A stretch of 64,000 bases of DNA from Actinomycetota bacterium (lineage in GTDB: Bacteria > Actinomycetota > Thermoleophilia > Miltoncostaeales > Miltoncostaeaceae): positions 124,001 to 188,000 of the forward strand of contig CAUJCX010000035.1 of NCBI GenBank assembly GCA_963169235.1, in the 5' to 3' direction. The notes under the pieces are model-generated. The model saw nothing but the letters and a program-made list of their open reading frames with translations, was not told where the DNA came from and did not search any database. How positions within the stretch are numbered: position 1 is the stretch's first letter; each line of letters begins with the position of its first letter. Shown here piece after piece: positions 34,875-46,969 of the stretch. Position numbers and translations under genes: made by a program.

Positions 34875-36197
34875 ATGGCGCAGCAGCTGTGGGGTGGCGA
34901 GACCACCAAGGCGGTCGAGAACTTCCCGGTATCCGGCGAGCGGGTGCCGCTCCCCGTCATCCACTGGCTGGGGCGCATCAAGGGCGCCGCGGCCCGCGTG
35001 AACGCCGACCTGGGCCAGCTGGACGCCGCCGTGGCGAAGCGCATCGCGGACGCCGCCGACAAGGTGGCCGGCGGCCAGTACGACGACCAGTTCCCCATCG
35101 ACGTGTTCCAGACGGGCTCCGGCACGTCGTCCAACATGAACACCAACGAGGTGCTCGCCAACATCGCCGGCGAGGGGACGCACCCCAACGACCACGTCAA
35201 CATGGGGCAGAGCTCCAACGACGTGTTCCCGTCGGCCGTGCACCTCGCGGCGCTCGAGCAGACCACGAAGAACCTGCTGCCCGCGCTTGACCACCTGGCG
35301 TCGGAGCTCGAGGCCAAGGCCGCCGAGTTCAAGGACATCGTGAAGTCGGGCCGCACCCACCTGATGGACGCGGTGCCCGTCACGCTGGGCCAGGAGTTCG
35401 GCGGTTTCGCCGCCCAGATCCGCCAGGCCGAGGCGCGCGTGAACGACACGCTGCCGCGCCTGTCGCAGATCCCGCTGGGCGGCACGGCCACCGGCACCGG
35501 CCTCAACAGCCACAAGGACTTCGCCGCGAAGGTGCGCGAGACGCTCACAAAGGACACGGGCCTCACCATCAACGCCCCCGCCCACCCGTTCGAGGCGCAG
35601 GGCAACCGCGACGGCCTCGTCGAGGCCTCCGGCGCGCTCAAGGTGCTGGCGGTCTCGCTGACGAAGATCGCGAACGACCTGGCGATGATGGGCTCCGGCC
35701 CGCGCGTCGGCATCGGCGAGCTGTTCCTGCCCGAGCTGCAGAAGGGCTCGTCGATCATGCCGGGCAAGGTCAACCCGGTGATCCCCGAGGTGTGCCTGCA
35801 GGTGGCGGCTCAGGTGATCGGCAACGACACCGCCATCACCATCGGCGGCATGCAGGGCCAGTTCGAGCTGAACGTGCGCATCCCGCTGATGGCGCGCAAC
35901 CTGCTGCAGTCGATCCACCTGCTGACCAGCGCGTGCACCATGCTGGCCGACAAGTGCGTCGCGGGGCTCCAGGCCAACCTGGCCGGCTGCGAGGCCAGCG
36001 CCGAGGGCACCCTGGCGACGGCGACGGCCCTCAACCCCTACATCGGGTACGACAAGGCCGGCGAGATCGTGAAGGAGGCCACGAAGTCGGGCCGGCCGCT
36101 GCGCGAGGTCGCGCGCGAGCAGGGCGTCGACGAGGAGACGCTCACCAAGGCCCTGAACCTGCGCGAGATCGCCGCGGGTTCGGGTTTCGCCGAGTAG
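34875..36197 (+). CDS. fumC: Class II fumarate hydratase
   Basis: A 440-residue homotetrameric fumarase of the aspartase/fumarase superfamily, interconverting fumarate and malate in the TCA cycle. Signatures are TGSGTSSNMNTNEV (near residue 80), the GRTHLMDAVPV segment, and the catalytic loop GSSIMPGKVNP. The usual first 20 residues (the xExDxLGxxxVP stretch) are missing: the protein begins at QLWGGETTKAVENFPVSG. The ATG at 34875 has TTGGAG six bases upstream, and the in-frame extension (GTG 34854) does not restore the missing motif. It is otherwise full length and should be active. Confidence 0.95.
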   Translation: MAQQLWGGETTKAVENFPVSGERVPLPVIHWLGRIKGAAARVNADLGQLDAAVAKRIADAADKVAGGQYDDQFPIDVFQTGSGTSSNMNTNEVLANIAGEGTHPNDHVNMGQSSNDVFPSAVHLAALEQTTKNLLPALDHLASELEAKAAEFKDIVKSGRTHLMDAVPVTLGQEFGGFAAQIRQAEARVNDTLPRLSQIPLGGTATGTGLNSHKDFAAKVRETLTKDTGLTINAPAHPFEAQGNRDGLVEASGALKVLAVSLTKIANDLAMMGSGPRVGIGELFLPELQKGSSIMPGKVNPVIPEVCLQVAAQVIGNDTAITIGGMQGQFELNVRIPLMARNLLQSIHLLTSACTMLADKCVAGLQANLAGCEASAEGTLATATALNPYIGYDKAGEIVKEATKSGRPLREVAREQGVDEETLTKALNLREIAAGSGFAE

Positions 36198-36213
36198 GGA
36201 AGGCCGCGACCGC

Positions 36214-36241
36214 CCGGGGCCGCCTGCGACGGCGGCCCCGG
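36214..36241. terminator. Perfect 11-bp hairpin between fumC and the propeller array
   Basis: Arms CCGGGGCCGCC and GGCGGCCCCGG surround the loop TGCGAC. The hairpin lies between convergent stop codons at 36197 and 36252 and can end both transcripts. Confidence 0.65.
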
Positions 36242-36251
36242 AGCGCGCGCG

Positions 36252-37910
36252 CTACCGGATGACGCGGGGCTCCGCGAACACCGCGAGGGGCACGCCGCGT
36301 CGCTGGATGACGAGGTGCAGCGTGCTGCCCTTGGGTACGGGCTTCTCGAACCGCAGGGTGATGCGGGTGGTGGGGAGGACGGCGGCGTTGCCGTTGCGGA
36401 CGGTGGCGCCCCAGTAGCGGCGCGTCGTCCTGCGGGTGCCGAGGCGGCTGCCCTTGGCCATCACGATGCGCTTGCCGGCGCGGTTCTCGACGTACGCGAC
36501 CACGCGTCCGGGGGTGAGCCCCTGGATGGTGAACGTGAGCGTCCTGCCCTTGCCGGTGAGCTTCGGCGCGATGGTCACGCGGCCCACGGCCGTGGACGTC
36601 GAGGGCGCCGGGGACGGCGCGGTGGGGGTCGTCGCGGGCGGCACCGCGGGCGTCGGGTCCGGGCCCTTCGGGGCGGCGACCGTGACCGCCGCGCTCGTCG
36701 CGGTCGTGGTCGCGCCCGGGAACACGGCTGCCGCCGTGGTGCCGGCGAACGTCGCGGTCGCCGTGCACGTGACGGAGGCGCCCCCATCGGCCGCAGTCGG
36801 GGTGTAGACCTGTGCGGAGGCGTCTGGGATGGCCGTGCCGCCGCGGCTCCACGAGTACGTGGTGGCGGGGGTGACCCCGGCCCAGGGGGTGGTGCTGGCG
36901 GTGCACGTGAGGGCCGTGCCCACGGCCGGCGTGCCATCGATGGTGGCGCCGGAGAGGAACGATCCGGTCCCGGTCGCAATGCGCCCGATGTTGCCCGCGT
37001 TGTACTCGGTGAACCAGAGGTTGCCGTCGGGGGCGACGGCGAGGAAGAACGGCCAGCTCCCCGCCGTGGGCAGCGCGTACGAGGTGAGCACGCCGCTGGT
37101 GGTGATCTGGCCCACCTGCCCGGAGTCGCGCAGCGCCATCCACATGTTCCCGTCGGGTCCGGCGGTGATCCCGAACGGGCCGCCGGGTACCGAGTACCGG
37201 GTGACGACCCCGGCGGGGGTCATCTTGGCCACGCTGTTGCCGCTGTACTCGGTGAACCAGACGTTGCCGTCGGGTCCGGCGGCGATGCTTTTGGGTCCCA
37301 CGGTGCCTCCGGTGGGGAACTCCACGTACGTCCCGTCGGTGGCCATGCGCACGATCTTCTTCGTGCCGAACGCGGTGAACCACAGGTTGCCGTCCGCGCC
37401 GACGGTGAGGCCCTGCACGTTGGAGCTTGCCGGCGCGTCGTACTCGGTGATGACGCCGCTGGTCGAGACCCGGCCGATCTTGTTGGTCGTGATCTCGACG
37501 AACCAGATACCCCCCGTGGGGTCCGTGACGATGTCGCCCACGCCGGTGGAGGCACTCGGGACGGTGTACGGCGTGATGGTGCCGTCGGGCGTGATCCGTG
37601 AGACCTTGAACGACTGGGTGAACCACAGGTTGCGGTCCGGCCCCGTGACGATGCCCCACGCGTTGGTGGCGGGTGCCGGCAGCGCGTGTGTGGTCACCAC
37701 GCCGGACGGCGTGATGCGCCCGACCGCCTTGCCGGACGCCCCGTAGGCGAACCACATGTTGCCGTCGGGTCCCGCGGTGATTCCCACGGGGTTGGACCCA
37801 GTCGCGAGGGGGAACTCCGTGATGGTCGGCGCAGCGTACGCGGCCGACGCGCTCGCGATGGCTCCGATTGCGGCCAGGGCGGTGATCGTGCGGGAGCGGT
37901 GGCGCGGCAT
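36252..37910 (-). CDS. Secreted seven-bladed Vgb-type propeller protein, copy 1
   Basis: A 552-residue exported protein. A signal peptide (about 1-27, ending ASAAYA) precedes seven repeats of about 42 residues with the core GPDGN(M/L/V)WF and an IG-I-T-G pattern, as in virginiamycin B lyase. Next come an Ig-like domain (about 310-395, two Cys: LTCTAS and VTCTAT), a Pro/Thr linker, and a basic C-terminal beta domain with GRVVAYVENRAGKRI and GSRLGTRRTTRRYWGA. Antibiotic lyase activity is unlikely because many environmental propellers share only the fold. ATG 37910 with AAGGA five bases upstream is preferred over GTG 37937. It is 52 bases from the pseudogene copy and has no promoter of its own that I can see. 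Confidence 0.8.
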   Translation of the reverse strand: MPRHRSRTITALAAIGAIASASAAYAAPTITEFPLATGSNPVGITAGPDGNMWFAYGASGKAVGRITPSGVVTTHALPAPATNAWGIVTGPDRNLWFTQSFKVSRITPDGTITPYTVPSASTGVGDIVTDPTGGIWFVEITTNKIGRVSTSGVITEYDAPASSNVQGLTVGADGNLWFTAFGTKKIVRMATDGTYVEFPTGGTVGPKSIAAGPDGNVWFTEYSGNSVAKMTPAGVVTRYSVPGGPFGITAGPDGNMWMALRDSGQVGQITTSGVLTSYALPTAGSWPFFLAVAPDGNLWFTEYNAGNIGRIATGTGSFLSGATIDGTPAVGTALTCTASTTPWAGVTPATTYSWSRGGTAIPDASAQVYTPTAADGGASVTCTATATFAGTTAAAVFPGATTTATSAAVTVAAPKGPDPTPAVPPATTPTAPSPAPSTSTAVGRVTIAPKLTGKGRTLTFTIQGLTPGRVVAYVENRAGKRIVMAKGSRLGTRRTTRRYWGATVRNGNAAVLPTTRITLRFEKPVPKGSTLHLVIQRRGVPLAVFAEPRVIR

Positions 37911-37962
37911 GCGGTCCTTGGGTGGGGGCGTCGTCACGCGGGGGTGCGAGGCGTTCGCGTGG

Positions 37963-39621
37963 TCAGCGGATGACGCGAGGCTCGACGAAGACCTTGAGGC
38001 TCTTGTCGGGTCGCTGCAGCACCAGGTGCAGCGTGCTGCCCTTCGGCGGGGTCTTCGCGAACCGCAGCGTGATGCGGGTGGTCGGCAGCACGGCCGCCTT
38101 GCCGTTGCGGACGGCGGCGCCCCACATGCGGCGCGTCAGCACGCGGGTGCCCAGGCGGCTACCCCGGGCAATCGGGATGCGCTTTCCGGCCACCGTCTGG
38201 GCGAAGGCGACGACGCGGCCGGCTTCGCGCCCCTTGATGGTGAACGACAGCGTGGTGATCTTGGCGCCGACCGTCAGTTTCGGCAGCGCGGTGAACGCGC
38301 CCGCGGGTCGCGAGGCCGCGGCGGGCCCCGGAACCGGCGTCGGTGACGAAGCGGGGGCGGGGGACTCGGACGTGGACGGGGCCGTCACCGTGACCGCCGC
38401 GCTCGTCGCGGTGTTGACGACCCCGGGGAATGCCGACGGGTACGTCCCCTCGGCGGTGCAGGTGAGGGCCTGGCCCCCATCGGCCGCGGTCGCGACGTAC
38501 GTCGCACTGGTTGCGCCGGGGATGAGGGTGCCCGCCCGGCTCCAGGTGTAGGTCAGGGTGGGCGTGATGCCCGCCCACGGCGACGTGGTGGGGGCGCACG
38601 TCAGGGTCGCGCCCACCGTCGGAGTGCCGGTGACGGTCGCGACCGTCAGAAAGCGCCCCACACCGGTGTTCGTGCGGACGATCTTGTTCGACGCCTGTCC
38701 GACGAACCACACGTTGCCGTCGCTGCCGACCGCGATGCCGAACGGCTTGCTCCCGCCGGTCGGGGGTGCGTACTCCGTGGAGACGCCACTGGTCGTGATC
38801 TGCCCGACCTTGCCGGACGTCCAGTTGGTGTACCACATGGTCCCGTCGGGGCCCGCGGTGAGGCCCCACGTGCTCCCGGCCGCCACCGGGTAGTTGGTCA
38901 CTGCCCCGGCGGGTGTGACCTTGCCGACAGTGCTGCCCCTGGGCCCGGTGAACCACACGTTGCCGTCTGCGCCGAGGGCCGGCGCGAACGTCCGCGACGA
39001 CGTGCTGAACGCCGTGACGGCTCCGGAGGGGGTGATGGACCCGATCTGGGCGCCAACGAAGTCGTCGCCGAACCACATGTTGCCGTCGGCACCGGGCGCA
39101 ATGCCCTGCGGCGTCATGCTCGTCAGCACGTGTTCGGTGATGACTCCCGCCGTCGTGATCCGCCCGACCCCGTGGGTGTCGTCCCCCTCGCCAAACCGAG
39201 AGGTCGTGTACCAGAGATCCCCGGTGGGTCCGGCGGCGATGAAGCCCGGCAGCGAGGTCACCGCGGTGCGCGCGAACTCGGTGACGGTGCCGCTCGGCGT
39301 GATCCTTCCGATCTTGTTTCCGAGCGCCTCGGTGAACCACATGTTGCCGTCCCCCCCCGGGGCGATGCCGTACGGCTTGCTGGCCGCGGTGGGGACGGCG
39401 AACATGGTCACCACGCCGTCAGGGGTGATCTTCCCGATCTTGTTCGCATCCTGTGCGGTGAACTACATGTTGCCGTCGGCGCCCGGGGCGATCGAGATCG
39501 GCGAGGAACCGGGCGGCAGCGTGAACTCCGTGAACGTGGGCGCGGCCTGTGCGGCCGAGACGCACGCGAGGCTGCCGAGAGCGGCGACGGCGGTGAGTGT
39601 GCGGATGCGGGAGCGGTTTAC
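37963..39621 (-). pseudogene. Secreted Vgb-type propeller protein, copy 2, decaying
   Basis: The frame is continuous from the signal peptide to the C-terminal module and has the same length as copy 1 (553 codons), with seven propeller repeats, Ig-like domain and the basic C-terminal domain. Two lesions stop expression. The tryptophan of the first GNMWF core is a TAG codon (39465-39463). The position aligned with the start codon of the other copies reads GTA (39621-39619), although a GAGGA ribosome site sits eight bases upstream and a good signal peptide (LTAVAALGSLACVSAAQA) follows. An annotation program would call a 483-residue ORF from 39414, which lacks any export signal. Selenium- or pyrrolysine-type recoding is not suggested by anything nearby. 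Confidence 0.82.
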
Positions 39622-39670
39622 GGTGACGTCCTCAGAGATCGGTGGGAAAGTGCGTGGGAACGGTAGGCGC

Positions 39671-39697
39671 CTCTCGGCAGTACCGATCGAGACTTCA
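39671..39697 (-). promoter_or_regulatory. Degenerate sigma-28-like promoter of the pseudogene copy
   Basis: On the minus strand: TGAA, 15 bases, GCCGAGAG. Spacing equals that of the intact copies, but the -10 has G for T at the sixth position. It fits the decay of the gene it precedes. Confidence 0.45.
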
Positions 39698-39714
39698 GGC
39701 GCTTTTCGGTGGGG

Positions 39715-41349
39715 CTACCGCAGCGTGCGGGGCGGGACGAACACACTGAGCGTCTTGTCCGGCCGCTGGAACACCATGCGCAGCACGCTGCCCGTGGGCA
39801 GGGGCTTGGCGAACCGCAGGACGACGCGGGTGGTGGGGAGCACCGGCTTGGTGCCGTTGCGGACGGCGGCGCCCCAGTAGCGGCGCGTGGTGGTGCGGGT
39901 GCCGAGCTTGGTGCCGGCGATCACCGGGATCCGTGCGCCGGCCTTGGTCTCGACGTACGCCACCACCCGGCCCGGTTCAAGGCCCGCGACGGTGAACGCG
40001 AGGGCGGTGGGGTTGATGAGCCTCGGGGCCACCACGAACCTGCCTGCGGCGGTGGGCTGCCGGGGAGTCGACGGGGCCGGGTTCGTCGCCGGCGCGGGGG
40101 CGGTGGCCGGAGCCGGGGCGGCCGCGGCGACGGTGACGGCGGCGCTCGTCGCGGTGTTGCGCACGCCGGGGAAGACGTACGCGTCGGTGCCCGTGAACTG
40201 ACCGGTGGCCGTGCACGTGAGGGCGCTGCCGAGGTCGTCGGCCGTCGGGGTGTACGTCGCCCCGGTGGCGCCGGCGATCGTCGTGCCGGCCTTGGCCCAC
40301 GTGTACGTCACGCCCGGCGTGAGGGTGGCCCACTTCGTGGTGGCGGGGGTGCACGTGAGGGCGCTCCCCACGGCCGCGTCCCCGGTGACGGCGGCGGCCG
40401 TGAGGAACCGTCCCACGCCGGGCTCCACCCGGGCGAGGGACTCGTTGCCGAACTCTGCGGCCCAGAGGTTGCCGTCGGACCCGATGGCGATGCCGAAGAT
40501 GGCGCTCTTCGCGGGGACGTCGGTGATGACGCCCGTCGGCGTGACCATGCCGATCCTGCTGTCGTTCCCGTCCGCGAACCAGATGTTGCCGTCCGGGCCC
40601 GCGGCGACCCCCTTGACGTCGGCGCCGTGCCCGACCGAATAGGTCGTGACCGTCCCCGACGTGGTGATCTTGCCGATGTCCTCTCCGGCTGAGTACCACA
40701 GGTTGCCGTCGGGGCCCGTGGCGATGCTCTCGCTGACGGTGGTGGTGTACTCGTTCAGCACCGTCCCGGAGGTGCTGAACTTGATGATCGAGGGCGTGTT
40801 CGGTCCCGCGATCCAGAGGTTGCCGTCCGGGCCGACGGTGATGCCGGTGGGGCCCCGGCTGGTTCCCACGGAGTACTCCGTGATCACACCGCTGGTGGTG
40901 ATCCGCCCCACCTTGCTGGTGAGCTGCTCGGTGAACCACAGGTTGCCGTCCGGGCCCACCACGATGTCGCGCGGCCACGACGTCGGGGTGGGGATCGGGT
41001 ACTCCGTGATGGTCCCGTCGGGGGTGATCTTCCCGATCTTGTTGCCCTTGTACTCGGTGAACCACAGGTTGCCGTCCGGCCCCGCCACGATGGCCGAGGT
41101 CTCAGTGCTCGCCGTCGGGATGGGCCACCGGGTGACGGCGCCCGACGGGGTCATCCGCCCCACGGAGTTCGTGAACTTCTCGACGAACCACACGTTGCCG
41201 TCGGGTGCGGCGGTGACATCCTGCGGCGAGTTGCCCGGGCTGATGGGGAGCGACGTGACGGTCGGCGCGGCCTGCGCGGAGGCGGCCAGCGCGAGGCCAC
41301 CGATCGCGGAGACCGCAAGGAACGTGCGGAGACGACGACGAGACGGCAT
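39715..41349 (-). CDS. Secreted seven-bladed Vgb-type propeller protein, copy 3
   Basis: A 544-residue exported protein with the same plan as copy 1: signal peptide (about 1-28, ending ASAQA), seven GPDGNLWF-type repeats, an Ig-like domain with two Cys, a Pro/Ala linker (about 405-435) and the C-terminal domain with GRVVAYVETKAGARI and GTKLGTRTTTRRYWGA. The protein ends RTLR. ATG 41349 follows CGGAG with seven bases between. A sigma-28-like promoter lies 50 bases upstream. The repeats are closest to copy 1 in their WFTEY cores. A binding or sensing role outside the cell is more likely than catalysis. Confidence 0.8.
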   Translation of the reverse strand: MPSRRRLRTFLAVSAIGGLALAASAQAAPTVTSLPISPGNSPQDVTAAPDGNVWFVEKFTNSVGRMTPSGAVTRWPIPTASTETSAIVAGPDGNLWFTEYKGNKIGKITPDGTITEYPIPTPTSWPRDIVVGPDGNLWFTEQLTSKVGRITTSGVITEYSVGTSRGPTGITVGPDGNLWIAGPNTPSIIKFSTSGTVLNEYTTTVSESIATGPDGNLWYSAGEDIGKITTSGTVTTYSVGHGADVKGVAAGPDGNIWFADGNDSRIGMVTPTGVITDVPAKSAIFGIAIGSDGNLWAAEFGNESLARVEPGVGRFLTAAAVTGDAAVGSALTCTPATTKWATLTPGVTYTWAKAGTTIAGATGATYTPTADDLGSALTCTATGQFTGTDAYVFPGVRNTATSAAVTVAAAAPAPATAPAPATNPAPSTPRQPTAAGRFVVAPRLINPTALAFTVAGLEPGRVVAYVETKAGARIPVIAGTKLGTRTTTRRYWGAAVRNGTKPVLPTTRVVLRFAKPLPTGSVLRMVFQRPDKTLSVFVPPRTLR

Positions 41350-41398
41350 GGGCACTCCGTGAGGCGATCGCGGTGGATGCGTAACCAATGGGACGTGC

Positions 41399-41425
41399 GT
41401 ATCGGCAGGTCGGCGCCGCACTTGA
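41399..41425 (-). promoter_or_regulatory. Sigma-28/WhiG-like promoter of propeller copy 3
   Basis: On the minus strand: TCAA (41425-41422), 15 bases, GCCGATAC (41406-41399). It is the best match in the set to TAAA-N15-GCCGATAA, with one -35 and one -10 difference. Confidence 0.62.
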
Positions 41426-41495
41426 GGCGCGAGGCACGCCAGATACGTCACTCCCTGGGGCAGGTGCGATCGGGTGGACCTTTGGGGGCATTCCG

Positions 41496-41516
41496 GGGGC
41501 CGTCAGCGACGGCCCC
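41496..41516 (-). terminator. Hairpin after propeller copy 4
   Basis: Arms GGGGCCGTC and GACGGCCCC (9 bp, perfect) flank a 3-base loop ten bases beyond the stop of copy 4. It separates copy 4 from the promoter of copy 3, so the two genes are separate transcription units. Confidence 0.55.
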
Positions 41517-41525
41517 GGAGCCGGA

Positions 41526-43100
41526 TCAGCGGACGGTGCGGGGTGCGACCAGATCGACGATCGACCGATCGGGGCGCTGCAGTACCAGGTGCAGGGTGGT
41601 GCCCTTCGGCAGCCCCTGGCCGAAGCGCAGGTTCACGTTCGTGCGGGGCAGCGTGGTGGTGGGCGAGCTGCCGGGCAGGGCGCTGGCCCACATGGGCGTG
41701 GTCAGCGTGCGGCGTCCCAGGCGGCTGGACGGGGCCAGCGGGATCCGCTTGCCGGCGCGGTTCTCGACGAACGCGACGACGCGTCCCGGCTCGGTCGCCT
41801 TGACGGCGAACGCCAGGGCCGCCGCGCCGCTCGCCAGCTTCGGCGTGGCGGCGAACTGGCCGTAGACCGGGGCGGGGGCGGCGACGGTGACGGCGGCGCT
41901 CGTCGCGGAGTTGCGGGCGCCGGGGAAGAGCACCGGGTAGCGGCCGTTCACCGTGCAGGCGATGGCTGCGCCCGCGTCGCCCGGAGCGGGCGTGTATGTG
42001 GCCGCGGTCGCGCCGTCGACGGTGGCGCCGTCGCGCGTCCAGCCGTACGCGAGCGTGGGGTCCTGGCCCGCCCAGCGGACGACCTGGGGCGCACACGTGA
42101 GCGTCTCACCCACGCGCGCGGTGCCGGTGACGGCCGCGGACCGCAGGAACGCCCCGGCCTGGAGGTCCACCTTCACCAGGTTCGCGCTCATGGAGCCCAC
42201 CCACATCGTCCCGTCGTTGGCGACGAGGATGCTCTGGGGGCGGTAGGCCTGCGCAGGCAACGTGTACTCGGTGATGACACCCGCCGGGGTGATCGACCCC
42301 ATGACACCCGACTCACCGACGAACCAGACGTTGCCGTCCGGGCCCGCGGCGACCGCCCCGGGCCCCGCGTCGGCCGTCGGGATGGCGAACTCCGTCACGG
42401 CGCCGGCGGGCGTGATGCGGCCGATGTGGTTGGTGTAGGGCGCGGTGAACCAGATGTTGCCGTCGGCGCCCGCGGCGATGCCATACGTTGCGGTCGGCGT
42501 GGGGAGGGAGAACTCGGTCACGACGCCGGCGGGCGTGATGCGGCCCACCTTGTCTCCCACGTCCTCGGCGAACCAGAGGTTGCCCTCGGCGCCGAGAGCG
42601 ATGCCGTTCGTCGCGGTCCGGGCGTTGGGGAGCGGGAACTCCGTGACGGCGCCCGCGGGCGTCACGCGGCCGATGCCGGGCTTCGCCCTCTGCGCGAACC
42701 AGACGTTGCCGCCGGGACCCGCCGCCAGGGAACGCACGTCGGCGTACTCCGGGAGGGCGTACGTCGCCACGTCGCCCGCGGGCGTGATGCGGCCGACGGC
42801 GTCCGGCGACTGCCGGGAGAACCACACGTTGCCGTCGGGGCCGGAGGTCACGGCGGCCGGGGTGCCGCCGCCGGTGAACGCGCGCATGGTGGCCGTGCCG
42901 CCGGGCGTCAGCACGCCGATGCCGTCGACGCCGAGCGCGGTGAACCAGAGGTTTCCGTCGGACCCGATCGCCACGCGCCGCGTCTCGCCGGTGGTGGGCA
43001 TGGGGGCGAGGGACACCTGGGGCGCGGCGTGGGCGACGCCCGACAGCGCGACGGCGGCGATGCCGGCGACGCCGGCGATCAGGGACAGGCGAGCGCGCAT
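41526..43100 (-). CDS. Secreted seven-bladed Vgb-type propeller protein, copy 4
   Basis: A 524-residue exported protein: signal peptide (about 1-25, ending GVAHA), seven repeats (GSDGNLWF, GPDGNVWF, GPGGNVWF, GAEGNLWF, GADGNIWF, GPDGNVWF, ANDGTMWV), an Ig-like domain (LTCAPQ ... IACTVN), then the shared C-terminal module with GRVVAFVENRAGKRI. It is the most divergent of the four copies; its C-terminal module has TPMWASALPG where the others have RRYWGA. ATG 43100 has CGGAG upstream. Its own sigma-28-like promoter and a downstream hairpin make it a separate unit. Confidence 0.8.
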   Translation of the reverse strand: MRARLSLIAGVAGIAAVALSGVAHAAPQVSLAPMPTTGETRRVAIGSDGNLWFTALGVDGIGVLTPGGTATMRAFTGGGTPAAVTSGPDGNVWFSRQSPDAVGRITPAGDVATYALPEYADVRSLAAGPGGNVWFAQRAKPGIGRVTPAGAVTEFPLPNARTATNGIALGAEGNLWFAEDVGDKVGRITPAGVVTEFSLPTPTATYGIAAGADGNIWFTAPYTNHIGRITPAGAVTEFAIPTADAGPGAVAAGPDGNVWFVGESGVMGSITPAGVITEYTLPAQAYRPQSILVANDGTMWVGSMSANLVKVDLQAGAFLRSAAVTGTARVGETLTCAPQVVRWAGQDPTLAYGWTRDGATVDGATAATYTPAPGDAGAAIACTVNGRYPVLFPGARNSATSAAVTVAAPAPVYGQFAATPKLASGAAALAFAVKATEPGRVVAFVENRAGKRIPLAPSSRLGRRTLTTPMWASALPGSSPTTTLPRTNVNLRFGQGLPKGTTLHLVLQRPDRSIVDLVAPRTVR

Positions 43101-43132
43101 GGAACTCCGATCAGGAGATGCAGGGTGCCCGC

Positions 43133-43159
43133 GCATCGGCACGGGCCGTGAAGAAATGA
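43133..43159 (-). promoter_or_regulatory. Sigma-28/WhiG-like promoter of propeller copy 4
   Basis: On the minus strand: TCAT (43159-43156), 15 bases, GCCGATGC (43140-43133), 33 bases before the ATG. Confidence 0.52.
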
Positions 43160-43187
43160 ACTCCGGGGACGCGCGCCGACGCGGCCG

Positions 43188-45344
43188 TTACCTGCGTGCC
43201 CGCGGGACGCGCAGCGTGATCACCTGGCGGGCACGCGTGCCGTCGGGCCGCACCAGGTCGACGACGAGCGGGACGGCCTTGCGCGGCAGCCGCGTCCGCA
43301 CCTCCAGCCGCAGCCGCTGTGGGGCGCGGGTCACGCGCAGCGACAGCCCCTTCGAGGCCCGGCGCAGCGCGACGACGCGGCGCTTCTTCCCGGCGAACAC
43401 CACCGCCCGGCTGCCTGCCGTGAGGCGTAGCGGGCGGGCGGCGTTGCCGAACCGCAGCGTGTAGCGCCCGCGTTCGAGCGCGGTCACGGGGAGGATCGCG
43501 ACGCCCTTCGCCACCTTCAGCCTGCCGACGCGGACCAGCCGCGGTGCGGGGGCCGGAGCCACCGCTGCGACGGTCACGGTGAGGGTCGTGGTGGCGGACC
43601 CCGCGAGGTCGGTGGTGGTCACCACGTGCGTGGTCGTGCCCGCGACGGCCGGAGTCCCGGACACGACGCCGGTGGACGCGTCGATCGCGAGGCCCTGGGG
43701 CAGGGCGGGCGACACGGTGATGGTGGCGGGACCCGTGCGGCCGATGGTGGGCGTCAGCGGGGTGATGGGGGTTCCCACGGTCGCCGACACCGACGTCGTG
43801 CCGTACGCGATGCGCGCCGCGCCCCACCCGTACACGCCCCGCATGGGGTTCGTGGCGTCGCCGGCGTGCGACACGAACACGTCTGCGTGGCCGTCGCGGT
43901 TGAGGTCGGCGCCCGCGATCGCCGAGCCCGCGAAGGCCCCGGCCGCGGTGCCGTTCATCACCACGCCGGCGGTCGCCGGGAGCGACGCCAGGTCGACGTT
44001 GGTCGGCGACGACGACCCGAACACCACGTACGCACGCCCCGCATCCTTCTGGCCCGAGGGGTCCGCGAGCGGAGCGCCCACGGCGAGGTCGGCGATGCCG
44101 TCCCCGTTGACGTCACCGACGCCCGCGACGGTCCACCCGGCCATATCGTTCGCCGCCGCGCCGTCGACGTGGGTGGAGGCCGCGGCAAGAGTGCCGCTTG
44201 CGAGCGTGCGCCCACCGTGCACGACGTACGTGCGGCCCGCCTTCGTCCGGCCGGCCGGGGCGGCGTTGGTCGCCGACACCGCGACGTCGCGGGCTCCGTC
44301 GCCGTTGACGTCGCCGACGCCCGCCACGGACCAGCCGGCATTGTCGTCGCTTGACTCGCCGTCGAGGCGGACGCCGGCCGTTCCCAGCGCGCCGAGGTCC
44401 GTGTCGGCCAGCGCCCGCCCGCCGAACAGCACGTACGCGCGTCCTGCGCCGCGCGTCGGGGCGCCGATGGCAAGGTCATCGATGCCGTCGCCGTTGACGT
44501 CGCCGGTCGCGGCCACCGAGGTTCCCGTCTGGTCGCTCGCAACCGCCCCCGCGATGGCCACGCCGCGGGTCCCCAGCGCGGCACCCAGGTCCATGCCGGA
44601 CAACTGGCGTGAGCCGAACACCACGAACACGCTTCCCGCCGCGCTCCGGCCCTGCGGGGAGGCGTACGGGGACCCCACCACGACGTCGTCGATGCCGTCC
44701 GCGTTGAGGTCGCCGCCAGCCGAGACCGACGTGCTGGCGTCGTCGAACGACGCCACGCCGTCGAATCGCACCGCCCGCGCGCCAGGGTCGGCCAGATCGA
44801 CATCCGACACGGTGGCCGAGCCGAAGACCACGTGCACGCACCCCTTCACGGCGTTCCCGGACGGGTTGGCCCCGACCGACCCGACGCCGACGTCGTCGAT
44901 GCCGTCGCCGTTGACGTCGCCGACGCCCGCCACGGTCGCACCGGTGCTGTCCTTCACCGCGGCGCCGCGGATGCGGAAGCCCTGGGAGGGCGTGAGCGTC
45001 GCCACGTCCACGTTCGCGGGCGAGGACGACCCGAACAGCACGAACGCCGTGCCGGTCTGGCCCCGCGCGGGGTCCGAAAAGTACGGCAGGCCGACGATCA
45101 CGTCGTCGTAGCCGTCGCCGTTGACGTCGCCGGCGGCGCCCAGCGACATGACGTACCCGGCGTCGCCGTGCCCCGAGGCGCCGGCGAGCGTGATGTTGGC
45201 CTGGGTGAGCAGGTCGACGCTCCCCGCCTGCTGCGGCAGGGCCGCGTGGGCGGGGGACACGACGCCGCACGCCGCCAAGGCGCAGAGCGTCAGCCAGCGG
45301 CGAACCTCGGCGGGGCGGGTGGGTGAGCATGCGCGGCGTGCCAT
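43188..45344 (-). CDS. Secreted FG-GAP (integrin-alpha-like) propeller protein
   Basis: A 718-residue exported protein. The signal peptide (about 1-37, ending SPAHA) is followed by seven FG-GAP repeats, each with a calcium-binding loop such as GDVNGDGYDDVIVG or GDVNGDGIDDLAIG, plus a FVLFGSS-type strand; the last loop is ADLNRDGHADVFVS. Seven repeats make a complete seven-bladed propeller. A putative-Ig domain follows (ATITVSPALPQGLAIDASTGVVSGTPA, in part PALPQGLAIDASTG), and then a basic Arg-rich C-terminal domain. Proteins of this type bind partners or surfaces in a calcium-dependent way. ATG 45344 has CGGAG seven bases upstream. A sigma-28-like promoter lies about 270 bases upstream, giving a long leader. 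Confidence 0.85.
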   Translation of the reverse strand: MARRACSPTRPAEVRRWLTLCALAACGVVSPAHAALPQQAGSVDLLTQANITLAGASGHGDAGYVMSLGAAGDVNGDGYDDVIVGLPYFSDPARGQTGTAFVLFGSSSPANVDVATLTPSQGFRIRGAAVKDSTGATVAGVGDVNGDGIDDVGVGSVGANPSGNAVKGCVHVVFGSATVSDVDLADPGARAVRFDGVASFDDASTSVSAGGDLNADGIDDVVVGSPYASPQGRSAAGSVFVVFGSRQLSGMDLGAALGTRGVAIAGAVASDQTGTSVAATGDVNGDGIDDLAIGAPTRGAGRAYVLFGGRALADTDLGALGTAGVRLDGESSDDNAGWSVAGVGDVNGDGARDVAVSATNAAPAGRTKAGRTYVVHGGRTLASGTLAAASTHVDGAAANDMAGWTVAGVGDVNGDGIADLAVGAPLADPSGQKDAGRAYVVFGSSSPTNVDLASLPATAGVVMNGTAAGAFAGSAIAGADLNRDGHADVFVSHAGDATNPMRGVYGWGAARIAYGTTSVSATVGTPITPLTPTIGRTGPATITVSPALPQGLAIDASTGVVSGTPAVAGTTTHVVTTTDLAGSATTTLTVTVAAVAPAPAPRLVRVGRLKVAKGVAILPVTALERGRYTLRFGNAARPLRLTAGSRAVVFAGKKRRVVALRRASKGLSLRVTRAPQRLRLEVRTRLPRKAVPLVVDLVRPDGTRARQVITLRVPRARR

Positions 45345-45363
45345 CGACGATCTCCGGGTGGTG

Positions 45364-45381
45364 GGGGCATCGCGATGCCCC
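45364..45381. repeat. Perfect 18-bp palindrome in the FG-GAP gene leader
   Basis: GGGGCATCGCGATGCCCC lies 20 bases before the FG-GAP start, just upstream of its ribosome site. It could be an operator or an RNA hairpin in the leader; nothing decides between them. Confidence 0.4.
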
Positions 45382-45612
45382 GTGGGCAGGGACGAACCAA
45401 CATGGGGGGTGCACGGAGCGACCGGCCGGCGCGCCGAATCCGGCGCGGCCCTCTCGCGATATCGGCCGCAGCGGGAGATCGCATGAGGACGAGGCGTGGG
45501 GAACGCCGGGCGCACCACGTCGACGCCGTCTGTCAGGCCACGAGTGCGCGGCGACGGGTGGATGACACGCGGTCTCCCAGGCAAGACATCAGAATCAAGG
45601 AACGGGACGCGC

Positions 45613-45639
45613 CTATCGGCACGGGGTGCACAGACGTGA
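45613..45639 (-). promoter_or_regulatory. Sigma-28/WhiG-like promoter of the FG-GAP gene
   Basis: On the minus strand: TCAC (45639-45636), 15 bases, GCCGATAG (45620-45613). The -35 and first seven -10 bases are identical to those of the FtsH-type gene promoter at 4563-4589. Confidence 0.6.
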
Positions 45640-45691
45640 GCCCCGGGGCACAACATCTCGCGGCGGCCGTCGCCTTTGGCAGACTCGCGGG

Positions 45692-46969
45692 ATGCCCGAC
45701 CCCGTCGCGCCCGCCGCACCGGAGCGCCCCACCTTGCGCGGCTTCTGGGACGCCCTCCCACGGTCGGCGCGCTGGCTGCTCGTGACCGTGGTGGCCGGAA
45801 GCCTGGGCCGCGGCCTCGTCACCGCGTTCACGGTGATCTACCTGCACGAGGTGCGGGGGATCGCGCTCGACACGGCCGGGGTACTCGTCGCACTCGCCGG
45901 CGTCGTGGCGGTCGCCGCGACCACCGTCGGCGGACCGGTGATCGACCACGTGGGCGCACGCGCCACGCTGATCGCCGTACAGCTCTTCGCGATCGTCGGG
46001 AACCTGCTGCTGACGTTCGTGTCGAGCATCGCGGTCGCGACGCTGGCGTTCGCGCTGCTGGGTGCCTCGTTCGGCCTGTCGTGGCCGTCGCAGAACACCA
46101 TGGCGTCGTCACTGGTGGGTGGCATCACGCGCCAGCTCTACTTCGGCGTCAACTTCGCGATGGTCAACCTGGGCATCGGCATCGGCGGCGTGGTGTCGGG
46201 GTTCGTCGTCGACGTCGACCGCCTGGGCACGTTCCAGGCGATGTTCCTCGCCGACGCCGCGCTGCTGTGCATCCCGCTCGCCGTCCTCCTGGGGCCCCTG
46301 CGCCGCGTGCACGGCCGGGTCCCCCCGTCCGGGGACGCGCGCGGCACCACGCTCGGCTATGGACCCCTGGTGCGCGACCGGGCGCTGCGGTGGGTGGTGG
46401 CGATGTCGCTGGTGGTGTCGCTCATCGGCTACGGCCAGTTCGAGGTGGGCATGCCGGTGTTCGCCCGGCAGGTGAGCGAGGTCTCCACGTTCACGCTGGG
46501 CCTGGCCTTCGGCGTGAACACGGCGGTGATCGTGCTGCTGCAGTTCGCGGTGATGCGGTGGCTCACCGGCCGGCGGCGCACCCGGGCGCTGGCGGCCACC
46601 GCGGTGCTGTGGGCCGTCGCGTGGATGATGTTCGGCCTCACGGGCCTGGTCGCCGGCGGGGCGACGGCGGCCGCCGGCGTGGTCGTCAGCCTCGGCGTGT
46701 TCGGGGTGGGCGAGGCCCTGATGCAGCCCACGTCCGCCTCCCTGGTCAACGACCTGGCGCCCGGCCACATGCGGGGCCGCTACAACGCGGCGTTCTCGTC
46801 GGCATCGCAGGCGGGCGCGGTGGTCGCGCCGCTGGCCTCCGGCGTGATCCTGGGGCGCCACTGGTCGACCGCGTTCGTGGCCGTGCTGCTGGCGCTGTGC
46901 GTCGTGTTCGCGGCGATCGCGCTGCGCCTGGAGGGCCTCGTGTCGCCCGCCGTCAACGGCCGGCGGTGA
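45692..46969 (+). CDS. Major facilitator superfamily transporter (MdtH-like)
   Basis: A 425-residue transporter with twelve membrane helices. Helix 1 includes SLGRGLVTAFTVIYLHEVRG, followed by a motif A variant GGPVIDHVGARATL; the second half begins at RDRALRWVVAMSLVVSLIGY (core RWVVAMSL) with a QFEVGMPVF loop. The pattern is that of MdtH/DHA1-like exporters. ATG 45692 is chosen at the start of the aligned region, with no ribosome site and a possible -10 seven bases upstream. It is convergent with ilvE. Substrate unknown. Confidence 0.86.
   Translation: MPDPVAPAAPERPTLRGFWDALPRSARWLLVTVVAGSLGRGLVTAFTVIYLHEVRGIALDTAGVLVALAGVVAVAATTVGGPVIDHVGARATLIAVQLFAIVGNLLLTFVSSIAVATLAFALLGASFGLSWPSQNTMASSLVGGITRQLYFGVNFAMVNLGIGIGGVVSGFVVDVDRLGTFQAMFLADAALLCIPLAVLLGPLRRVHGRVPPSGDARGTTLGYGPLVRDRALRWVVAMSLVVSLIGYGQFEVGMPVFARQVSEVSTFTLGLAFGVNTAVIVLLQFAVMRWLTGRRRTRALAATAVLWAVAWMMFGLTGLVAGGATAAAGVVVSLGVFGVGEALMQPTSASLVNDLAPGHMRGRYNAAFSSASQAGAVVAPLASGVILGRHWSTAFVAVLLALCVVFAAIALRLEGLVSPAVNGRR

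Follow-up and report, generated by a model that had tools for sequence, protein, structure and literature searches.

The window, a stretch of 64,000 nucleotides with a GC content of 73% (C35:124001-188000), lies in an actinobacterial genome of 2.94 Mb that is present in 65 contigs and is 96% complete. It contains four tandem genes of one architecture on the minus strand, which were named c0, c1, c2 and c3. The c0 gene spans 41526-43100 and ends in TGA, with the ATG at 43100 picked as its start by likeness to its siblings (other starts exist upstream). The c1 gene (39715-41349) starts with ATG and ends in TAG, and c3 (36252-37910), apparently copy 1 of the original prediction, runs for 553 codons from ATG to TAG. 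Between these two intact siblings lies the interrupted copy c2 (37963-39621), which has 553 codons from GTA to TGA, the stop counted. c3 starts 52 nt downstream of c2 and has its own AAGGA site. The pairwise identity among the four copies is 40-53%. A gene for an FG-GAP plus putative-Ig protein (43188-45761, minus strand) is found directly upstream of the cluster, making five co-directional repeat proteins in a row. In addition, the TAG stop of c1 (39717-39715) is in the frame of c2, and only two TAGs break the frame spanning c1 and c2; this shared register is a one-in-three coincidence.

The Pfam model PF24684 (cut-off 50 bits) matched c2 from codon 70 on with 220.1 bits, and c1 and c3 with 260.1 and 260.8 bits, respectively; c0 was left out of the Pfam run, and its matches to the streptogramin lyase models of NCBIfam stayed under the cut-offs. 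A motif search found seven blade cores per copy in 4/4 copies, and both the PF24684 score and the seven blades place c2 in Vgb_lyase. When c2 was modelled as a read-through product with the TAG taken as W, using AlphaFold2 on the four-row alignment, the mean pLDDT was 77.9, and the ten-residue blocks over residues 31-320 were mostly at 80-94, with one at 60. The top Foldseek matches of this model were 2qc5 and 2z2o, and it aligned to 2z2o with a Z of 41.7 and an rmsd of 1.7 over 287 residues (VIA-align). The predicted fold is like that of virginiamycin B lyase (2z2n, 2z2o, 2z2p and 2qc5), a seven-bladed propeller, with 32% identity and Z of 40.8 to 41.7. Unlike this enzyme, the four copies add, in our reading, further parts to the propeller: each appears from the alignment to carry a signal peptide and an Ig-like part, and to share with the others a C-terminal domain of ~110 residues, and the proteins are probably secreted. 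With the NCBIfam streptogramin lyase models, for which the cut-off is 600 bits, the scores of the four copies were 130-188 bits (c2 taken from codon 70). The entry 2z2p is titled as the catalytically inactive H270A mutant of the lyase. In the residue register that we infer, none of the four copies has a His at the position of the catalytic His270, and the one or two His that each copy has within residues 28-325 do not stand in a PHxI-type place. Because the scores are far below the lyase cut-off and the expected His seems to be missing, the four copies are probably binding or structural propellers.

Start and stop codon changes in c2

The position at which the start codon of c2 is expected reads GTA (39621-39619), and it aligns with the ATG of c3; c1 also has ATG there. 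A Shine-Dalgarno-like GAGG (39633-39630, minus strand) precedes this GTA by 8 nt, as part of a GAGG/AGGA ribosome-site match located 7-8 nt upstream. Further into the gene, codon 53 is an in-frame TAG (39465-39463) that replaces the Trp of blade 1 in the DGNMxF core, and this Trp is kept in all three siblings and in the congener (G001). The changes at the start position and at codon 53 are disabling lesions in the coding sequence, by which c2 would be classed as a pseudogene. The alignment of the four copies showed no frameshift of c2 relative to its siblings, and the frame is otherwise unbroken, with the same 553 codons as in c3. An open frame alone is weak evidence in DNA of 73% GC, as the longest open stretches in other frames of c2 also reach 425 and 419 codons; the absence of frameshifts and the conservation of the protein weigh more. 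A run of eight G in c2 (39358-39351) encodes Pro-Gly-Gly-Asp at the place of Gly-Pro-Asp in c0 and c1, and the frame is intact there.

The lesions were also viewed against the rest of the window and the genome. Each of the lesion words tested occurs only once in the window, which excludes any sibling there as their source. Within c2, the 21-mers of the blade-1 and blade-2 cores differ only at the stop base. A scan of ~125 kb of the genome for stops flanked on either side by coding signal returned seven hits, of which, by reading of the frames, four were gene junctions, two were antisense to coding sequence and the only one within a gene was the TAG of c2.

The region upstream of c2 was searched for promoters and for other starts. 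A −10 box described earlier as decayed, GCCGAGAG, is present at 39678-39671. The sigma-70 scan of 35500-44500, which covers one promoter type and has little power in GC-rich DNA, found 0 sites for any copy (shuffles average 0.2), and an alignment of the four upstream regions showed, by reading, no promoter-like block in common. There is thus no baseline for calling a −10 decayed, and of the three separate signs of decay in the original prediction, the GTA behind its ribosome site and the TAG in place of the Trp codon were both borne out along with the unbroken frame, and the promoter box was dropped, which leaves two. Predicted folding of the spacer ahead of c2 was not more stable than in shuffled sequences (z −0.28). 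Between the stop of c1 and the GTA, the frame lacks ATG, GTG and TTG, and the sole such codon between the c1 stop and codon 70 is the ATG of codon 52, right before the TAG. Two in-frame ATC codons occur upstream of the GTA (39687 and 39639), with no ribosome site seen before either. ATC is a rare start in translation table 11, and Hecht in 2017 reportedly measured initiation from all 64 codons. The commonest start in the crude gene calls was GTG, with 50 of the 95.

Whether the TAG could be read as sense was assessed from the translation machinery. RF1 is encoded (435.6 bits; cut-off 423.25), and TAG is the stop of 35 of the 95 crude gene calls in ~125 kb, as well as of c1 and c3. None of the 46 tRNA matches, detected with Rfam and all passed to ARAGORN for the anticodon (30 as search loci and 16 in stretches of sequence), has a CUA anticodon in this genome, where at 96% completeness a missing tRNA is possible. 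From these three observations, TAG is an ordinary stop in this genome, and the marks by which recoding or suppression is recognised, namely a CUA tRNA along with the loss of RF1 or the avoidance of TAG, were both absent. The RNA around the TAG of c2 gave a z of +1.48 and no special hairpin. The suggestion that c2 might still be made by an unusual route therefore gained no positive support, and no convincing internal start was seen either.

Conservation of c2 and its relatives

The four proteins were compared residue by residue. Over 508 columns, the residues unique to one copy against three agreeing siblings numbered 17 in c2, 27 in c3, 30 in c1 and 65 in c0; by this count only, c2 is the least diverged copy. 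When c1, c2 and c3 were compared three ways, the numbers were 64 for c2, 62 for c3 and 79 for c1, which puts c2 level with c3. To find the fewest unique residues in the broken copy is, as far as such counts go, unlike what would be expected of the most dispensable one.

Selection was assessed with a codon model over 507 columns. The omega of the c2 branch was 0.121 (profile support interval about 0.05-0.29) vs 0.049 for the background, a borderline difference (LRT 3.75), and omega = 1 was rejected for the whole c2 branch (LRT 15.5). For c1 and c3, the branch values were 0.043 and 0.080, respectively. Across three tree shapes, the omega of c2 stayed at 0.120-0.123 and omega = 1 was rejected with LRT of 11.5 to 16.3; the best-likelihood quartet pairs c2 with c0, and the branch controls were run on the c2-c3 pairing. 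Synonymous sites are near saturation among the four copies, and the c0 branch, which has a low omega and carries no lesion, departed more strongly from the other branches (LRT 8.15), so a near-saturated comparison of this kind can give branch differences of other origin. Furthermore, a whole-branch omega cannot separate a short neutral tail, even where omega = 1 is rejected and the values are 0.121 vs 0.049 as for c2. The codons ending in A or T were more frequent in c2 (44/551) than in its siblings (77/1617; p = 0.007, uncorrected). A GC3 as low as that of c2 was found in 11 of the 95 crude gene calls, and the codon shift is therefore not exceptional. A short relaxed phase would fit both the mildly raised omega and the extra AT-ending codons.

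The time for which c2 could have been without function was estimated from neutral decay, with frameshifts taken as 8% of substitutions by our own assumption. The probability of at most one stop and no frameshift was 0.19 at 20 neutral substitutions and about 0.013 at 50. If c2 is dead, it would on this assumption have been dead for less than about 3% divergence. The rest of c2 looks like a protein that was kept intact by selection until recently, and the earlier claim that the decay is recent agrees with two disabling changes, no frameshift, unique residues that are not in excess and a branch omega well below 1.

Relatives of c2 were searched for in several sets of sequences. The one congener has no c2 ortholog, and a tblastx comparison of the locus with it for synteny gave noise. 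The part of c2 from codon 70 matched 28 of the 42 family genomes, its own genome included, and among the matches listed for these 42 there was no full-length ortholog from another genome; the best match from another family genome, among the matches listed, was 48% identical over query residues 2-250. The genome-contig search gave no c2 ortholog in the 80 relatives kept out of 122, with the best segments 32-51% identical, and the viral contigs gave one weak match and no ortholog. Two Vgb-type matches among those listed, each from another genome of the family (G006:C235:13122-13670 and G032:C121:6172-6948), contain an in-frame TGA. Five contigs titled as a Bifidobacterium breve MAG (L048, L058, L081, L087 and L101) encode Vgb-type propellers related to the query, and this label looks doubtful.

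Explanations for the interrupted gene

These results together indicate that c2 is probably a very young pseudogene or a still-segregating null allele among four tandem genes for Vgb-type propellers that are likely to be secreted, and that ordinary gene loss caught early is the most likely explanation of the locus. A ribosome starting at the GTA would be released after 52 residues, having made the signal peptide and the first strands, and the remaining 499 sense codons would have no proper start and would give a product that could not be exported. The loss would be tolerated thanks to the three intact paralogs beside c2, which share its architecture, and c3 may still be made, perhaps at a lower level through polarity. 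The main rival to recent loss is a consensus artefact, in which a sequencing error or a collapsed strain mixture put both changes into an intact gene, and we consider it unlikely. The genome looks like a metagenome assembly, to judge from its 65 contigs and from 16S rRNA pieces on two contigs, and apart from the two sites c2 shows no decay at the level of the protein. However, it is improbable that two substitution errors would fall by chance into one gene at a distance of 155 bases (39619 and 39464), an assembler could not have taken lesion words that are unique in the window from a sibling there, and no other in-gene stop was seen, by reading, in ~125 kb. The modest codon shift would fit real relaxation, weakly, and this also goes against an artefact.

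The other readings take both lesions as real and keep c2 in use. In one of them, initiation at the GTA in the manner of sigR and natural suppression of the UAG would give a small, regulated amount of the protein. The omega well below 1, the GAGG at its spacing of 8 nt, the GTC start of sigR (available part of PMC5472188) and the read-through of in-frame stops argued in the accessible portion of PMC7918605 all speak for it, but two unusual events would be needed in series in a genome that encodes RF1, has 0 CUA anticodons in 46 tRNA matches and ends c1 and c3 with TAG. Conservation of the GTA or the TAG could not be shown, as no c2 ortholog was seen among the matches listed from relatives, and we regard this route as improbable. 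For a shortened protein initiated inside the gene (at the GTG of codon 70 or of codon 71, or at the ATG of codon 73), there are 483 open codons counted from codon 70 and a GGTGA match upstream of ATG 73. The spacing of that match is only 2 nt, the best sequence before GTG 70/71 is GATC at 12-15 nt, and the product would be missing the signal peptide and the first of the seven blades in the ring, both retained by the siblings; such a protein is very improbable as the real product. Finally, both lesions have A for G, with UAG vs the UGG of the siblings and GUA vs the common start GUG, and A-to-I editing of the mRNA would therefore undo both at once. We find it scarcely credible that c2 is a silenced conserved reserve which is restored by such editing, or which is joined with c1 into a two-propeller fusion by read-through of both TAGs; if true, either would explain a constrained gene that is not directly readable. 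The motif of TadA is UACG in the part of PMC12214031 at hand, and going by that part it is absent at both c2 sites (UAGU and GUAA). In the predicted fold, the A of the UAG lies in a one-by-one internal mismatch and not in a hairpin loop.

The proposed recent loss of c2 has several published parallels. The accessible text of PMC7918605 describes in-frame stops as widespread in bacterial genes whose dN/dS stays below 1 and as tending to be short-lived, and argues that they allow read-through in constrained genes. Like the cases given there, c2 has a dN/dS below 1 and is interrupted by one in-frame stop; unlike them, its start codon is also hit, and no ortholog turned up among the matches listed by which the persistence of its stop could be followed. 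Propeller genes disrupted by in-frame stops or frameshifts are described in the available part of PMC9218822, which names sequencing errors as a caveat. Like those propellers, c2 is broken by an in-frame stop, whereas the blades treated in that part are freshly amplified and nearly identical, and those of c2 are diverged, in a gene belonging to a tandem set of four paralogs with 40-53% identity. The sigR gene of Streptomyces starts at GTC, according to the portion of PMC5472188 that could be consulted, and c2, likewise from an actinobacterium, resembles it in that a ribosome site precedes a GTN codon. Unlike sigR in that portion, the GTA of c2 is only a putative start and a stop follows at codon 53. 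As far as the accessible parts of these three papers go, a young null allele is an ordinary finding.

The state of c2 advises caution in two respects: a gene with an unbroken frame and a low omega is not thereby shown to be alive, and in an apparent metagenome assembly a TAG should be checked against reads before decay is claimed. If translation of c2 were found, the gene would serve to test start- and stop-codon tolerance in GC-rich bacteria. As a recent loss, c2 may show a gene near the moment at which it is lost. The locus points to ongoing turnover, in this lineage, of a tandem family of propellers that are probably secreted, and propeller turnover may be common in this bacterial family.
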